From positions 1 to 36,622 of the forward strand of contig JAIRWL010000004.1 of the NCBI GenBank assembly GCA_031268935.1: a stretch of DNA of 36,622 nt, given 5' to 3'. A model generated the notes under the pieces. That model was not told the DNA's origin, did not search any database, and saw only the letters and a list, made by a program, of their open reading frames with translations. This DNA comes from Holosporales bacterium. GTDB lineage: Bacteria; Pseudomonadota; Alphaproteobacteria; RUG11792. Within the stretch, counting starts at the first letter, position 1. Each line of letters starts with the position of its first letter. Shown here piece after piece: positions 18,490 through 33,514 of the stretch. The position numbers and the translations under genes were made by a program.

Positions 18490-19245
18490 ATGAGAAATAT
18501 CATCTATTTAACTATCGCAATAGGTACCATAATTAGTTTCTCTCTCAGGGCCAACGACTTCAAAGGCCCAGAGAAAAATTCGGACACTCGGGGGGCGGGG
18601 GATCAAGCCCCAGTCCCGGAGGATGATCCGAGCCAACTTTTCAATCTGCCGTTTTGGAATTTTACTGGAGACTCTGATACTTCAGGAGGTTTGGACACAG
18701 GGCCCGAACCAGCAGAGTACTCAGCCCCTTTACAGACCGGTATGCCATATAGGTCTATGCTCACACCACATCCGTCAACTTCGGGAAGGGGTCGCCCAGG
18801 TCAGGGACAACATACATTGGAGGGGGAGCAGGGGCGCCGGGTCCTGGGGCCAGGCAGGAGAGTGAATGCGGTGGATTTTTGGGCGGCTGAGGAATCCGAA
18901 CTGCTCACTAGGCTCTTCTCATCAACGGGTTCCATTCCTCCATACAGCAGGGCAGCAGTCGGGATCGGTCCAAGGGGCCTGCCACACTCATCAAGCAGGA
19001 GTAGCAGGGATCAGAGAGCCTCAGTGGCTCCTAGATTAGGCCGGCCCGAGGGAGGGTTAGCATTGCGCCCTCAAAGAAGCTCGTCGGGAGATTCATTAGG
19101 TCATCCCGATTGGAGTGGGGCCCTCTTCAGAGATGAAGTGAATTATCACAATGCGCCGTACATCATCCCGCAGGGCCCAGATTATACAGACTATCCCGGC
19201 ATGTGTCAGCTTTCATTGATCAACACCCGCAGAGGCGTGGTATAA
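18490..19245 (+). CDS. Secreted Pro/Gly/Arg/Ser-rich protein, N-terminal part
   Basis: Unknown function. ATG 18490 is preceded by AGGA and a good promoter. A signal peptide (MRNIIYLTIAIGTIISFSLRA) leads into 230 residues of low-complexity, Pro-, Gly-, Arg- and Ser-rich sequence with no recognisable fold. As in the phase-variable genes, a G-rich run (G6-C-G5, 18590-18601) lies about 100 nt into the gene, but the C interrupts it and would stabilise it. The frame ends at 19245 inside the next frame, which is open from 19137. A single base change in the 100-bp overlap would fuse the two into a protein of about 490 residues. High GC and unusual composition set it apart from the flanking pdh and divL genes. 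Confidence 0.6.
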   Translation: MRNIIYLTIAIGTIISFSLRANDFKGPEKNSDTRGAGDQAPVPEDDPSQLFNLPFWNFTGDSDTSGGLDTGPEPAEYSAPLQTGMPYRSMLTPHPSTSGRGRPGQGQHTLEGEQGRRVLGPGRRVNAVDFWAAEESELLTRLFSSTGSIPPYSRAAVGIGPRGLPHSSSRSSRDQRASVAPRLGRPEGGLALRPQRSSSGDSLGHPDWSGALFRDEVNYHNAPYIIPQGPDYTDYPGMCQLSLINTRRGVV

Positions 19246-19970
19246 TCCTACAGAATATCATAGGCAAGTTCATCAGAGCTGGAGGCAATCGAGCCCTGGC
19301 AGCCTTAGGTGACACAACGCTCGCATCATTGATTGGGGCGGAAGAACTAGGTGGCCCGGGGCCCGATGTTGCCGCCCCAGAGGAAGAATCCAGTGCCCCC
19401 TCGCCGGATCCCCAGTTGGAAGCATCCGGAGGTGCCACACCGGTACCAGACGGACGTGGGGATATACCCCCGGAGGCCCCGATTCCCCCGATACCGGACG
19501 CAATACCACCGTCTCCCGACCTCACGGCGGAGGAGGGTTCAGTCCCCCTCAGTGGGAGCACCCCGCAGACACCGACCGATTTACCTACCTTCTCCTCTGG
19601 GGTTCGAGCCGGATTAACAGTTCTGCTCACTACTTTGCCACACGAGCCATACGAAGGACCCTTGGCGAAGATTGATCTTACTCCCTTCCCGGCGATGATA
19701 CATGATTTATATGTTAAACTAATTGAGTTAAATCTCTCCACGGATGACATCTGTGAATTATACTCTTTAGCCATTAGCTTATCTTCAGGGGGCCGAAGCC
19801 GAGAGACACTTTCTTTCCAGGTGCGTCAAAATATGGACAGTTCTCGCGCGACGAGAGACAACAACTTGAAATTTACTACCAGGCTACTCATAAAGGCGGG
19901 TAGAGATCAGTTACAGGAAGCCATAGCTGCACTTTCGGCCGGGGGACTTGATGTGCCCGTTCGACCGTAG
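19203..19970 (+). CDS. Downstream frame of the split secreted protein
   Basis: No signal peptide and no ribosome site at GTG 19203, so this is more likely the C-terminal part of the 18490 gene, separated by a frameshift, than an independent gene. It starts with a short helical stretch (QNIIGKFIRAGGNRALAALG), runs through an acidic Pro-rich linker with PP repeats, and ends in a folded-looking domain (GLTVLLTTLPHEPYEGPLAK through LKFTTRLLIKAGRDQLQEAI). An intrinsic terminator follows directly. I recognise no family. Confidence 0.5.
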   Translation: MSAFIDQHPQRRGIILQNIIGKFIRAGGNRALAALGDTTLASLIGAEELGGPGPDVAAPEEESSAPSPDPQLEASGGATPVPDGRGDIPPEAPIPPIPDAIPPSPDLTAEEGSVPLSGSTPQTPTDLPTFSSGVRAGLTVLLTTLPHEPYEGPLAKIDLTPFPAMIHDLYVKLIELNLSTDDICELYSLAISLSSGGRSRETLSFQVRQNMDSSRATRDNNLKFTTRLLIKAGRDQLQEAIAALSAGGLDVPVRP

Positions 19971-20129: not shown

Positions 20130-22319
20130 TTAAAGGCTATATATGTTGCTCAAGCGACATAGAATTGCGAGATGATTATTTTCATCAATCGAAATATCTA
20201 ATTTTGCTCCGTGGAGGTTAAATATTGTGTTCGCCAGAAGTATTCCGAAATCGTTAGGATTGTTGGTGTCACTAGCTCCCGGTTCTGAACTAACAATTCG
20301 TTGTAACAGAGTTATTTCACCCCTAGATGCATTTAAATCTTCGCTCGCAATGCTCAGTTCCATAATTTTATCATCAATGAAGTTTACCGAAATTACAATT
20401 TTCCCTTTCGTAGCGACGATTCTTTCTAACCGGCACATCGTATGAAAAACAGCCAATATCATGGCACTTTCGTCTACGCATAGTGTAGCCGATTTATCGT
20501 AAGCTTTCGCATCTACGATAACTTCTAGAGCGGAAGATTTCGATCTATATAAGTTGGTTGCTTCCTGAATGAGGTGATCGATCGATATCTCTGAGCGATT
20601 TAGGGTCGCATTTCCTGCTTCGAGTCCAGCAAGTTTGGAAATGGTTTCGACGGTTTCATCTAGCATTTTGGCAGAAGCCGTTATTCCTCGGCAGTATCGT
20701 AATTGTTTCTCACTCAATATTCCAAAATAATTTTTTTCTAATATTTCGGCGAAACCAACAATTGTATTTATAGGGCCGCGCAAAGCCAGAGAAATATTTT
20801 CTAGCAAGCGGTCCTTTAGTTTGTCAATTCGTGCCACGATGTCTATCTTTTCGCGAAGAGTTTTTTCAAGATTCGCCCTATCTGTAGCGTCAAAAAAACC
20901 AAGCAGATGGAACCCATCTGGTAATGGAATATAGCTATAGTCGAATGTTTTGCCATTTGAAAGAGAGAAAGAATCGGCAACCTCGATTCTTTGGATGGAA
21001 ATATTGATCAAATTATCAGCCAACAATTTTGATTCTTCGATCGATGTAAAGCACTCTTTAGCCAATTCAAAAAAATCTTGCACGTGAAGCCCAACCACAT
21101 CCTTAGGCTCGTCAACACCCCACATAGTCATAAATGAGGGATTCGTAATTTTAATTCGTATATCAGAGCCGAAAACGATAATTCCCTCCCTGAGGTGCCT
21201 GAGAGTCTCTCTCTGCACGGCCGCGATGGCGTTCATCTCGCGCTCGAGAGAAACCTTATCGGAAATATCTTCACAGATCACGATCAATCCTCCCCCTCTC
21301 GGATTGGGAGAAATGTTAAGATTCATGAATTTGTCATTTTTGAGATGCAAGGTTGCATGATATGGCTCGATAAGATCGAGAAAAATTCGTTTAAACTGAT
21401 CTTTGTGGTCTAAATTGAGGATGGTCCCATTCTCAAAAAGTGAGTCTAAGATGTCTGCGAAATTTTTTCCGAAGTAATCACCTTGCCAATCTGAGCCAAA
21501 CAATTTGATAAAGCTAACATTTGCAAAAACGAGTCGGATCTTCTCGTCGCAAATGGCGATAGGTATCGAAACATTATCCAGCGTTTCTTCTGTTTGTTTT
21601 TTATAATTTTCGTACTCTTTTTGGAGAAATTCCGTATTCGTTACGTCGATGGCAAATCCAGTTATCGGACTATGCCCGACTCCGGGCAGTTCGGTCACCT
21701 CTAGAAATCGCCGATCCCCCTTAATCACCACGTGTTCATTAAATTTTTTTGCTCGAAATTGATTGGTGGCATGAGCCGACGACAATGAATTGTGTTTATG
21801 ATTTGCCAATAAATTTAAGTTTTTAGCGAGAACGGCTTCTTTCGAAGTCTCGAGAGCATCGGAATATCGTTTATTGCAATAAATGAGTTGAAGATCTCTG
21901 TTTTTTTGCCAGATGTACAATGGGAGAGTATCTAAAATCGAAAGCAACGGATTGTTTTCGGTCTTCTTTGGATCATCCACAATTAACATGTAAAGTTGAA
22001 GCTTCCGATAAAATATGAGTCGCAAAGTTAGGATTTTTCCCGATTCATGCAAAGATACAGAAGATACATAATCGGTAACATTAGAAGTGCTCGAAGAAGA
22101 AACGGCCTCGACGGCCGTTACTAAGAAATTTCCGAAAGCAGCCTGACAGAGACGAACGAACTGCAGTGGAGCAAGAAAATTTGGAGATTCCGAAGACTGG
22201 AGAACTCCAAGAAGGGGCGCCGTAACAAAAATTTCATCGCCCACTAGAAACCAGGCGGCACAAGGCAAAGGCAATAGAGGTACAGCATTCCTTAATAAGC
22301 TAATTTTCTCATCAGACAA
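20130..22319 (-). CDS. divL: DivL-like PAS-domain pseudo-histidine kinase
   Basis: Multi-PAS signalling protein of the alphaproteobacterial DivL type, which in Caulobacter controls CckA and the CtrA cell-cycle pathway. Tandem PAS-like segments run from about residue 120 to 480 (LPLYIWQKNRDLQLIYCNKR, IPIAICDEKIRLVFANVSF, EGIIVFGSDIRIKITNPSF). The diagnostic FDYSYIPLPDGFHLLGFFDATDRANLEKTLRE linker leads into the dimerisation helix. The phospho-acceptor position reads ISLALRGP near residue 510, with Leu in place of the usual His or DivL's Tyr. The ATPase domain lacks a recognisable N box and DxGxG motif, keeping only a late FGILLANTIFNLHGAKLDI. It probably acts by binding, not catalysis. The gene stands alone; the symbol is by family. 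Confidence 0.75.
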   Translation of the reverse strand: MSDEKISLLRNAVPLLPLPCAAWFLVGDEIFVTAPLLGVLQSSESPNFLAPLQFVRLCQAAFGNFLVTAVEAVSSSSTSNVTDYVSSVSLHESGKILTLRLIFYRKLQLYMLIVDDPKKTENNPLLSILDTLPLYIWQKNRDLQLIYCNKRYSDALETSKEAVLAKNLNLLANHKHNSLSSAHATNQFRAKKFNEHVVIKGDRRFLEVTELPGVGHSPITGFAIDVTNTEFLQKEYENYKKQTEETLDNVSIPIAICDEKIRLVFANVSFIKLFGSDWQGDYFGKNFADILDSLFENGTILNLDHKDQFKRIFLDLIEPYHATLHLKNDKFMNLNISPNPRGGGLIVICEDISDKVSLEREMNAIAAVQRETLRHLREGIIVFGSDIRIKITNPSFMTMWGVDEPKDVVGLHVQDFFELAKECFTSIEESKLLADNLINISIQRIEVADSFSLSNGKTFDYSYIPLPDGFHLLGFFDATDRANLEKTLREKIDIVARIDKLKDRLLENISLALRGPINTIVGFAEILEKNYFGILSEKQLRYCRGITASAKMLDETVETISKLAGLEAGNATLNRSEISIDHLIQEATNLYRSKSSALEVIVDAKAYDKSATLCVDESAMILAVFHTMCRLERIVATKGKIVISVNFIDDKIMELSIASEDLNASRGEITLLQRIVSSEPGASDTNNPNDFGILLANTIFNLHGAKLDISIDENNHLAILCRLSNIYSL

Positions 22320-22779
22320 TTTTCTAACCGTTCAAATGGTCAAGATACGATGACACAGCACTCAACTTCAGTCAAATACTAGCGCAAAACCTATCGAAGA
22401 ACTACATAAGTTTTACCAAATCATAAAACATCGCTAGAATACAATAGATTTATAATTTTGGCTACCTTTAACGCTTAAAATAATTAAATCCTCCATCAAT
22501 AAACCATTAGATGCCTCGCTAAATAGTTGTTTCGGATTTTATCATTAAACATTTATGATTATCAAAGCCAAACAGGGCGTCCAAAGAAAATGAGCGATCT
22601 TTGTGATCACCTCATCGTGTACCGAAAATCTCTAAAATCAACGCCATGCGATGATTTTTTGTCATCTTTTCCTTTAAAATTTAAATTGGTCTTTCCAGGG
22701 GTAACTACGGTCATCCTTGATTTTTCCGGTATGATCGTGAGATAATCGGCGCGGTTACAGTCTTTTTTCCCAGTGTGAA
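22320..22779. other. Divergent intergenic region, divL and pntAA
   Basis: No convincing gene in 460 bp. A 72-codon plus-strand frame (22527-22745) has no ribosome site or recognisable product. AAAATCA and TGATTTTTT around 22636-22660 form a weak T-rich hairpin. Promoters for both flanking genes must lie here. Confidence 0.4.
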
Positions 22780-31212: not shown

Positions 31213-32187
31213 ATGATTTATGAAAATTTAGAAGCGATTTATAAAATGTATGATTCGTTTTTGATAGATGTTTATGGGGTTCTATATGATGGTAAAAAAC
31301 TTTATCACGGTGTTCTTGATATTTTAAAAAAAATAAAAGATTCTGGAAGGAAGATAATTATATTATCCAATACGACGTTGATTTCCAAAATTTGTAAAAT
31401 TCAATATGCTGAATTTGGATTAATCGAGGGGGTTCACTACGATCAATTCATGAGCTCTGGAGAAGTGTTCAAAAGAATGATTCCAGATATTTTTACCCCA
31501 TCTGCGAGGTATTATCAGATTTTTCAAAGAAATTTGCTGATTTTTGAGGGAAGTAATTTAGTTGAGGTAGAAAAAATTGAAGATGCAGATTTTGTATACG
31601 TCGGAATAGTTTTCGCAAATGGACAGAGATATCCAGTAGATAAACTCAGAACGAAATCTGGAGCGGAAATCAGGATAGACGAATTGCTCAAGGTCAGCGT
31701 AGATGAAATAGATGGATTTGATGACATAGCTACGATCCTCAAAAAATGCTTAGAGAATCAGAAAAAATTAGTAATTTCTAATCCGGATATATTCGCGATG
31801 GACTCGATCGATGGAGCGACGCGCCCAACTTTATGCCAAGGAGGTATCGGTGAATTTTACGAGCAAATGGGTGGAGAAGTATTGTATTTCGGCAAACCGT
31901 ATCAGCCCATATATAGTTTCGTTGAACAATATTTGACGGGGAGTGAGGAGACGGCCATGATAGGGGATACCCCGTGGACCGACATATTGGGAGGAAATAT
32001 GGCTGGGCATTCCACTATCCTTACATTAACGGGGGTTGCCAACTGCTACCTCAGCGAGATGTCTCCGGAGCTGGGAATCGACCATAAAATAGAAAGGCTA
32101 ATCGAGGAAGTGTCCGCAATAATGACCCATAAAAGCATGCGGCATTTTTCCAAACGGCCTACCCAAATAATCAAAAGCATGGCTTAA
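31213..32187 (+). CDS. HAD-superfamily subfamily IIA hydrolase (TIGR01459 type)
   Basis: Haloacid dehalogenase-type phosphatase. Motif I is DVYGVLYDG (nucleophile Asp and acid Asp), motif II the Ser/Thr in ILSNTT, motif III Lys near YFGKPYQPIY, and motif IV GDTPWTDILGGNMAG. Cap insertion between motifs II and III is of the IIA kind, related to NagD and 4-nitrophenylphosphatases. This subfamily is common in alphaproteobacteria; its substrate is not known. ATG 31213 matches the usual N-terminus. It lies just upstream of tRNA-Ser. Confidence 0.85.
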   Translation: MIYENLEAIYKMYDSFLIDVYGVLYDGKKLYHGVLDILKKIKDSGRKIIILSNTTLISKICKIQYAEFGLIEGVHYDQFMSSGEVFKRMIPDIFTPSARYYQIFQRNLLIFEGSNLVEVEKIEDADFVYVGIVFANGQRYPVDKLRTKSGAEIRIDELLKVSVDEIDGFDDIATILKKCLENQKKLVISNPDIFAMDSIDGATRPTLCQGGIGEFYEQMGGEVLYFGKPYQPIYSFVEQYLTGSEETAMIGDTPWTDILGGNMAGHSTILTLTGVANCYLSEMSPELGIDHKIERLIEEVSAIMTHKSMRHFSKRPTQIIKSMA

Positions 32188-32242
32188 ACACAGTGACATT
32201 TCATCTCGAATTGAGGTAGAATCGACAGGGTCATAGCATGCG

Positions 32243-32332
32243 GGATGGGTGGCCGAGTGGTTGAAGGCACCGGTCTTGAAAACCGGCAAGGAGGCAACTC
32301 CTTCGTGGGTTCGAATCCCACCTCATCCGCCA
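32243..32332 (+). tRNA. tRNA-Ser (anticodon UGA), CCA encoded
   Basis: Seven-bp acceptor stem GGATGGG / CTCATCC (one G.U), D-arm GGCCGAGTGGTTGAAGGC, anticodon loop CTTGAAA with TGA, an extended variable arm (AAGGAGGCAACTCCTTC) as in all tRNA-Ser, T-arm GTGGGTTCGAATCCCAC and encoded CCA at 32330-32332. Confidence 0.97.
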
Positions 32333-32723
32333 AATGGTCATAAATTAAGACAAATGTCAAAAGTAGATAAGCGAAGCGTCTTTTGATGTTTGTGTTAACT
32401 TATGAGAATATGGCAAGATGGGGGGAGTCGAACCCACGAAGGAGGGGGAGGCGTGGTCCATCCCTGAGCTCCTAGATACAATGATTTGGTCTCTTCTTTG
32501 GGTTGGAGGATACGAGGTCTCGCTCATCCTGGGCGGGAGTTCCACTTAGATGGCCCATAACCTGGGGGCAGGGAGGCGGATTCCGCTTAGGCAAAATGCC
32601 TAAGCTCTGAATAGAACTTTTGGATAGACCGCCCGGAACTATTTCCGATGCCGTCTCTTGGGGATTGAGGGATAATCAAAGCCATCGGTTAATCAATGAA
32701 AATCCCATAGATCAGGACGTCCC
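32333..32723. other. GC-rich gene-free region after tRNA-Ser
   Basis: No gene supported. It holds an inverted, decayed copy of the tRNA-Ser 3' end (32411-32444) and a perfect 8-bp hairpin, GCTTAGGC (32585-32592) and GCCTAAGC (32598-32605), with AAAAT as loop and no T-run. Composition matches the accessory islands. Confidence 0.5.
32411..32444 (-). pseudogene. Inverted remnant of the tRNA-Ser 3' end
   Basis: Seventeen bases (32428-32444, TCGAACCCACGAAGGAG) are an exact reverse complement of 32298-32314 in the tRNA-Ser variable/T-arm. The match continues imperfectly to the CCA end (TGGC at 32411). No complete cloverleaf can be formed. It may mark a past integration or duplication at the tRNA. 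Confidence 0.6.
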
Positions 32724-33119
32724 CTACCTAGCGGGGGGAGGATTTTGATCCGGCGCTACTCTATCCTGAACTTCCGGATCCATTTCCGCCTGTTCCAACT
32801 CCCGCCCTGCGGCCTCTTCTTCCCGTTGCAGTCTGGCCTGATCCTCCCTCTCCTGAGTGATGCTTCTTAGCTGGGAGAACGACCGTTCCGCCCACAAATA
32901 CCTCTCCCATGCCGTCTCACATAGATCGGGAGGTACCGGGAACTCTACCAAGCTTGCAATACTCAGGACAGGCGGTAGATACGGAGGCTCCCTTGGGATA
33001 GTAAGGCCGGGGGCCGGGTGCAACATTCCGTCAATGGCTCCTTCAATGCAAGCATTGAGTACATCGTTACCTTGGATTACATCGGTGTCAGTCATCCTGG
33101 TAGTGACCCAGCCTAACAC
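32724..33119 (-). CDS. C-terminal frame of a broken secreted protein
   Basis: A 131-codon frame that begins at GTG 33119, overlapping the TAG stop of the previous frame (33113-33115) by 7 bp. It could be a coupled second gene, but without a signal peptide or ribosome site it is more likely the C-terminus of the 33638 gene after a 1-nt indel near 33113-33128. The product has a Pro-rich middle (IPREPPYLPPVLS) and a charged helical end (RLQREEEAAGRELEQAEMD). No family recognised; GC-rich. Confidence 0.5.
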   Translation of the reverse strand: MLGWVTTRMTDTDVIQGNDVLNACIEGAIDGMLHPAPGLTIPREPPYLPPVLSIASLVEFPVPPDLCETAWERYLWAERSFSQLRSITQEREDQARLQREEEAAGRELEQAEMDPEVQDRVAPDQNPPPAR

Positions 33120-33514
33120 AACCGAATCTCATCACCAGCCCTTAAATGAATGGATCGGTTCCGTCCTGGCATACAAACATCAAAACACTCGCACCTATCA
33201 TCAGCGGTGATAAAGGATATGCCCCCCGACCACTGCCAGATACGGTTAGGTCCCCCTACCCGGTTCAGCCCGTCCTGAGCTGCAGCCGCTAGAGAGAAGA
33301 GGTGATCATTCAATCTCTGCCCTTCCGCCAATACCTCAGCCTGAGCACGCAAAGACAAGAAACCGTAGTCTATTAAAATATCATGCCCTGAGGTCACAGC
33401 GTTTACCTCGGACTGTGGGCTTCGGTCCCCCCGGGGGGCGGGGCTGCCATAGCAACCTATAACCCCTGATACCCCCGCAAATTCGTAACTGAAAGTCTGG
33501 GAATGATACGAGCC
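33113..33514 (-). CDS. Middle frame of a broken secreted protein
   Basis: Open from 33514 to the TAG at 33113; the first start-like codon is GTG 33397 without a ribosome site. It becomes continuous with the signal-peptide frame if one base is lost from the C6/G6 tract at 33427-33438. The sequence looks like ordinary folded protein (HDILIDYGFLSLRAQAEVLAEG, NRIWQWSGGISFITADDRCE). Function unknown. Confidence 0.5.
   Translation of the reverse strand, partial: GSYHSQTFSYEFAGVSGVIGCYGSPAPRGDRSPQSEVNAVTSGHDILIDYGFLSLRAQAEVLAEGQRLNDHLFSLAAAAQDGLNRVGGPNRIWQWSGGISFITADDRCECFDVCMPGRNRSIHLRAGDEIRLC

Follow-up and report, generated by a model that had tools for sequence, protein, structure and literature searches.

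Caulobacter crescentus DivL couples DivK~P to CckA and, according to Childers et al. (PMC4211667), carries out its essential functions without a phosphorylated DHp domain and with a dispensable CA domain. In 4q20 a PAS array precedes the DHp-CA module, which also reads DivK~P; the protein has the non-histidine residue Tyr550 at its phospho-acceptor position, keeps the N, G1 and G2 residues of its ATP site and does not need kinase activity; one DivL with an alanine at the phospho-acceptor site is also named there. In the Rhodobacterales, as given in PMC9430884, the kinase and CA domains of DivL became degenerate after the loss of DivK and were then truncated, leaving a long degenerate DivL in one group (Oceanicella, Albimonas) and a short one in the rest. 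A further DivL relative, DvlL of Wolbachia and the Anaplasmataceae, is described in PMC4426382 as an approximately 400-aa PAS-only N-terminal fragment without a catalytic domain, in reduced symbionts that run CckA-CtrA without DivK. Literature searches on Holosporales together with DivL, CckA or CtrA turned up no report of the DivL family described here: Holosporales appears once, in the reference list, in the part of PMC8116508 that was available, and the terms CtrA, two-component and cell cycle do not occur in a 2025 Holosporales review (PMC11909080).

We propose a model for a DivL encoded in the genome of a reduced alphaproteobacterial (Holosporales-like) symbiont, on a stretch of 36,622 nucleotides that was analysed whole and is called the window. 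The protein has lost its phospho-site and ATP site, while its PAS array, its DHp and the predicted fold of its CA domain remain; it is probably a kinase-dead CckA adaptor that is no longer read by DivK~P, perhaps as a result of the loss of DivK. It would act as a dimer, the PAS array and DHp helices binding CckA and biasing it between its kinase and phosphatase states, and CckA would then drive a ChpT-like protein and CtrA. Without DivK, the receiver-facing and ATP-site residues would have been freed of constraint and drifted or been replaced, with the fold kept. The orthology, the residue losses, the relaxed constraint, the presence of CckA, CtrA and a ChpT-like gene and the lack of a detectable DivK are shown below; we infer that ATP is not bound, that CckA is bound, the direction of the effect on CckA and the causal role of DivK loss. 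The features of the gene are as follows.

20130..22319, minus strand: divL-like gene, 729 aa, TTG start (open frame; family matches)
21975..22319, minus strand: N-terminal PAS-like domain, residues 1-115 (AlphaFold2 secondary structure reading only; without Pfam match)
21645..21956, minus strand: PAS domain a, residues 122-225 (Pfam PF00989 127-207; AlphaFold2 model)
21264..21587, minus strand: PAS domain b, residues 245-352 (Pfam PAS_7 247-358)
20886..21224, minus strand: PAS domain c, residues 366-478 (AlphaFold2 model; TIGR00229 370-417)
20619..20852, minus strand: DHp dimer helices, residues 490-567 (HisKA match 502-568, under the Pfam cut-off; model helices 479-528 and 537-567)
20787..20789, minus strand: Leu511 (CTG), phospho-acceptor position, equivalent to Tyr550 of Caulobacter DivL (alignments)
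20148..20597, minus strand: CA (ATPase-fold) domain, residues 575-724, nucleotide-binding motifs lost (alignments, model, fold comparison)
20430..20432, minus strand: position of the N-box Asn, here Arg630 (alignment)
20331..20345, minus strand: G1 box position, residues 659-663, SEDLN (DTGRG in Caulobacter DivL; alignment)
20232..20252, minus strand: G2 box position, residues 690-696, DFGILLA (GLGLALV in Caulobacter DivL; alignment)

The host genome has 0.955 Mb and is 96.67% complete. We compared it within a family of 35 genomes (group f1), 32 of which have a match to the window DivL, and against 24 other genomes of the class, 59 genomes in total. DivL matches at E<=0.001 were missing from three family genomes (G003, G019, G023) and five outside genomes (G042, G050, G051, G052, G057), and a further outside genome with weak matches only (G056, best 2.1e-6) was not included among the DivL rows. 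Matches in the family start mostly at query residue 2-25, so that the non-ATG start of the window gene is plausible. In Pfam the protein gives PAS domains and a sub-threshold HisKA; HATPase_c has no Pfam match in it, and none at the gene in the whole-genome search (E<=0.1). The order of PAS array, DHp and CA is present, the CA by predicted fold only. No claim is made for control of divL by CtrA, since TTAA-N7-TTAA boxes (<=1 mismatch) are as frequent in the window as expected (36 observed, 35.8 expected) and none lies in the gap upstream of divL (22320-22779). Elsewhere in the window, positions 18490-19970 hold two overlapping Pro/Gly/Ser-rich frames without Pfam match and with a GC content of 54-56%, where the divL gene has about 40%; comparable frames rich in Pro or Gly occur at two other loci viewed (L009, L085), and a second stretch of raised GC (51-54%), with short frames only, lies at 32001-33500.

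The original prediction had described a DivL-like protein with leucine at the phospho-acceptor position, and this holds: the phmmer alignment sets ENISLALRGPI of the window opposite GNVSYELRTPL of 4q20, with Leu511 at Tyr550. As four of the five frames from the same genus carry Leu (codons CTG, TTG, CTA, CTG), the fifth carrying Phe and the sixth genome of the genus (G003) having no DivL match, the residue is not a sequencing slip. Across the 31 family proteins in which the site is readable there are 11 different residues (five Tyr, five Cys, four each of Leu, His and Asp, three Phe, two Ser, and one each of Gly, Gln, Lys and Glu), so that five members still have Tyr, whereas the 17 rows from outside the family, the Caulobacter fragment included, have 14 Tyr and one each of Cys, Gly and Glu; these counts exclude three PAS-only proteins (G018, G040, G058). 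Tyr is therefore usual in a DivL and not absolute, being absent from 3 of the 17 outside rows. Judged by this alignment, Leu is not special to the window gene and the site residue is free across the family. The family being one clade, its 31 rows do not stand for as many independent events; a tree of the 47 rows with a site residue requires at least 19 residue changes there, with 8 changes between Tyr and non-Tyr. The position of Arg553 follows the same course, with Arg in 11 of 31 family rows against 15 of 17 others. When 597 columns were ranked by entropy gained in the family relative to the outside rows, the second G1 Gly came 1st, the phospho-acceptor site 10th, a G2 Gly 11th, Arg553 12th and the G1 Asp 16th; the N-box Asn came only 70th because it has been replaced by Arg or Lys and not freed. 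The catalytic and docking positions are thus, in the aligned columns, among those losing most constraint, though a large share of the first 30 ranks goes to PAS columns as well. Four family loci (L020, L023, L028, L038), in two separate places of the tree, have His at the phospho-acceptor site despite a lost N-box Asn.

Six residues of the ATP site were scored (the N-box Asn; Asp, Gly and Gly of G1; Gly and Gly of G2), and the window DivL keeps one of them, so that with Leu511 it lacks both the phosphorylatable His and the ATP site of an active HisKA kinase. All six are found in 14 of 17 outside rows and in 0 of 30 family rows, where the maximum is four. Binding of ATP by the window DivL is unlikely on these grounds. 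The N-box Asn, kept by 14 of 17 others and by none of the 30 family members, has become Arg or Lys in 23 of the 30, and the first G2 Gly has become Asp or Glu in 25 of 29. One could imagine that the dead CA has been rebuilt, with fixed charges filling the ATP pocket and holding one conformation without nucleotide, which would turn DivL into a CckA switch that is driven by the PAS domains and needs no nucleotide; we regard this as an unlikely, tentative extension. A simple salt bridge between the two positions was considered and dropped, as the replacements do not covary (of 29 members 18 have both replacements, 4 have Arg/Lys alone, 7 have Asp/Glu alone and 0 have neither), and plain inheritance from one ancestor may also account for them.

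The original prediction spoke of a wrecked ATPase domain with unrecognisable N and G boxes, which is right for the nucleotide site (one of six residues, no HATPase_c match) and too strong for the domain, whose fold is predicted intact. By its secondary structure, an AlphaFold2 model built on 36 aligned sequences can be read as two DHp helices and a complete CA fold preceded by four PAS-like units; with a mean pLDDT of 81.9 but a pTM of 0.39 the domains are credible and their mutual arrangement is not. Of 36 DivL proteins scanned, 31 still give an HATPase_c match (E<=0.01), the window copy not being among them; 27 of the 36 belong to the family, hence at least 22 of these 27 still have a recognisable domain. 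Mean identity in the family is 45% for DHp, 36-39% for PAS, 31% for the N-terminal part and 24% for CA, against 50% for DHp, 30-42% for PAS and 35% for CA outside it, and this fall of CA relative to PAS means that CA has lost constraint in the family. Within the genus CA changes fastest, with a mean identity of 36% where the PAS domains have 60-74%; PAS domain b, at 74%, is the slowest-changing part of the protein. The dN/dS ratios of nine pairs (NG86, several with saturated dS) are 0.10-0.35 for CA and 0.03-0.21 for the joined PAS domains, one of the nine having CA about equal to PAS. By these comparisons, constraint on CA is relaxed in the family, though not wholly lost.

The fast CA and the existence of a PAS-only relative would also suit a gene that is simply being lost, its C-terminal half decaying without function ahead of a truncation as in G018. 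In that genome (L057) DivL stops right after the last PAS, and no kinase remnant is visible by eye in the three frames read behind it. The gene is followed by frames that look like ribosomal proteins. All other extracted family frames, however, run through CA or to a contig end, and the low CA dN/dS (with dS partly saturated), the predicted intact fold and the retention of two CA residues, His703 in 27 of 29 and Gly705 in 28 of 29 family rows, argue for a maintained domain, which makes such decay improbable.

The suggestion of a pure PAS-based scaffold is not supported as worded: with DHp more conserved across the family than any other part and an intact CA fold predicted, the protein still keeps its dimer helices and a dead CA. 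In the 36-row alignment the DHp residues I520, F523, I526, L527, Y531 and F532 are near-invariant and G533 and Q539 invariant. Conservation of this kind would also be expected if DHp paired directly with the DHp of CckA (or of the EnvZ- or NtrY-like kinase) and silenced that kinase as RetS does, without the PAS array. Indeed, the RetS kinase region (6dk7, 6dk8) matches the fold of the window DHp-CA part and ties with DivL in VIA-align (Z 19.9 against 20.0). There is, however, no sign of a shared partner in the window case. The window DivL also has a PAS array in place of the RetS sensor. Hetero-dimerisation of this type is improbable, as the PAS-only DivL of G018, G040 and G058 have no DHp at all and the PAS domains are kept in every scanned member (PAS_7 in 36 of 36), and we retain the proposed adaptor, which would bind CckA through both PAS array and DHp.

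The pathway in which the adaptor would act is present in reduced form. Both cckA and ctrA, named for look-up in the original prediction, are in the window's genome, where their top NCBIfam matches are to the models for CckA (NF046020, E 7.1e-175) and CtrA (NF045991, E 6e-97), both scores being under the curated cut-offs; of the 35 family genomes, 34 have CckA (E<=1e-60) and 30 have CtrA (E<=1e-45). HisKA occurs in four genes of the window's genome (NtrY-like, CckA, EnvZ-like and divL) and HATPase_c in six (CckA, NtrY, EnvZ-like, GyrB, MutL and a small kinase beside the HTH-receiver gene), so neither PleC nor DivJ is found there. Its five receivers are the NtrX-like protein beside NtrY, CtrA, CckA, an OmpR/PhoB-like regulator and the HTH-receiver protein; the profile search returned no single-domain receiver, hence neither DivK nor CpdR, and the predicted reduction of the circuit is confirmed to this extent. 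In a further difference from the Rhodobacterales case (PMC9430884), a single-domain receiver such as Osp is not found in this genome. The small kinase (L009:212-1923, G000:C5) is a 326-aa HATPase protein without Pfam HisKA match, followed directly by the HTH_3-plus-receiver protein, and many family genomes have low-scoring receiver frames of comparable length (about 230-300 aa).

Of chpT and divK, also proposed for look-up, the first is represented only by a very divergent candidate and the second was not found. Pfam PF10090 detects ChpT in 0 of 35 family genomes and in 18 of 24 others; loss of ChpT was nevertheless dropped as a conclusion when a profile of 15 ChpT proteins, followed by a profile of three family hits, found a divergent ChpT-like gene in 33 of 35 family genomes, the window's included (L085:1498-2085, minus strand; G000:C7:21097-21693) and one of them weak (G034, 2.1e-4). 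Compared with the 15-ChpT profile the family set scores 98.5% with E 2.2e-15, a match of limited independence, since the same profile had served to collect the set in the first place, and Cys-His-Glu is invariant in ten aligned proteins. At the four loci viewed (L078, L079, L080, L085) the ChpT-like gene adjoins a Methyltransf_4 gene, which we take to be TrmB-like.

With the Caulobacter sequence as query, none of the 35 genomes in the family has a DivK match at E<=1e-15, and 18 of the 24 others have one, 12 of them at E<=1e-30; the six between the two thresholds (G042, G050, G052, G055, G056, G057), among them a 127-aa single-domain frame in G055 (1.0e-17) that may be a DivK, were not counted as DivK. 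Seven family receiver frames are shorter than 150 aa (G006, G010, G013, G021), all at contig ends, that of G010 being the tail of CckA. None of the genomes with PAS-only DivL, one in the family (G018) and two outside (G040, G058), has a DivK match. G039 and G054, however, have no DivK match and still carry Tyr together with a complete set of six ATP-site residues, and G047, also without a match, has Gly at the site and six of six, so that loss of DivK is not sufficient; conversely G036 has a DivK-grade match (8.4e-31, the weakest of the twelve) but Cys at the site. The loss is therefore permissive at most, and as the tree holds two independent DivK/Tyr pairs only, the association cannot reach significance. 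In Caulobacter, moreover, PMC4211667 has Y550H leaving DivK~P binding undisturbed, with harm to growth and morphology, and Y550F also binding DivK~P, so that DivK binding is not a plain reason for keeping Tyr. Brilli et al. (PMC2877005) state, as data not shown, that wherever DivL lacks its kinase domain DivK is absent too. The window family, with no DivK found, a degenerate long DivL and one PAS-only form, reads as an independent instance of a course known from another lineage.

The assignment to DivL itself is well supported by homology searches. Caulobacter DivL 4q20 (C-terminal part) was the first of 11 phmmer matches in the PDB (E 1.8e-8) and the top row of VIA-align (Z 20.0, 225 residues aligned, rmsd 4.2), though Foldseek's own ranking places it 42nd; DivL is the nearest relative found, so that neither of the conditions named as refuting in the original prediction, absence of CckA/CtrA or closer similarity to another PAS kinase family, applies. 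In large, kinase-rich alphaproteobacterial genomes the window query picks the Tyr-bearing DivL far above other kinases (in G035, 9.8e-72 against 1.0e-18 for the next), and in a tree built from the PAS region (50 rows) all 32 rows of the family share the same side of a branch supported at 100/97. That the gene is another PAS histidine kinase of PhoR, PleC, DivJ or PdhS type with a mutated site is highly improbable, for although the NCBIfam ranking is led by models for PhoR, MASE3 and DivJ, each far under its cut-off, and has no DivL model among the 17 returned, both structure-database leads are DivL and the DivL Tyr stands in the best matches of 13 of 16 readable outside-family genome frames, these matches covering the PAS array and DHp.

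The window DivL is therefore known in kind and informative in detail, its catalytic loss being deeper than in Caulobacter: where Caulobacter DivL reads DivK~P and retains Tyr550 along with the N-, G1- and G2-box residues (PMC4211667), the window has Leu, one of six residues and no DivK found. It belongs to a lineage other than the Rhodobacterales and to a family that is mostly long with one PAS-only form (compared with PMC9430884), and this family keeps the kinase-like half that DvlL lacks (compared with PMC4426382). A family without detectable DivK and with 11 residues at the former active site amounts to a natural mutagenesis of the kinase-like module of DivL. It may separate what is needed for the regulation of CckA (PAS array, DHp) from what is needed for reading DivK (Tyr, Arg553, ATP site), and it supplies ready DivL variants for tests in Caulobacter.
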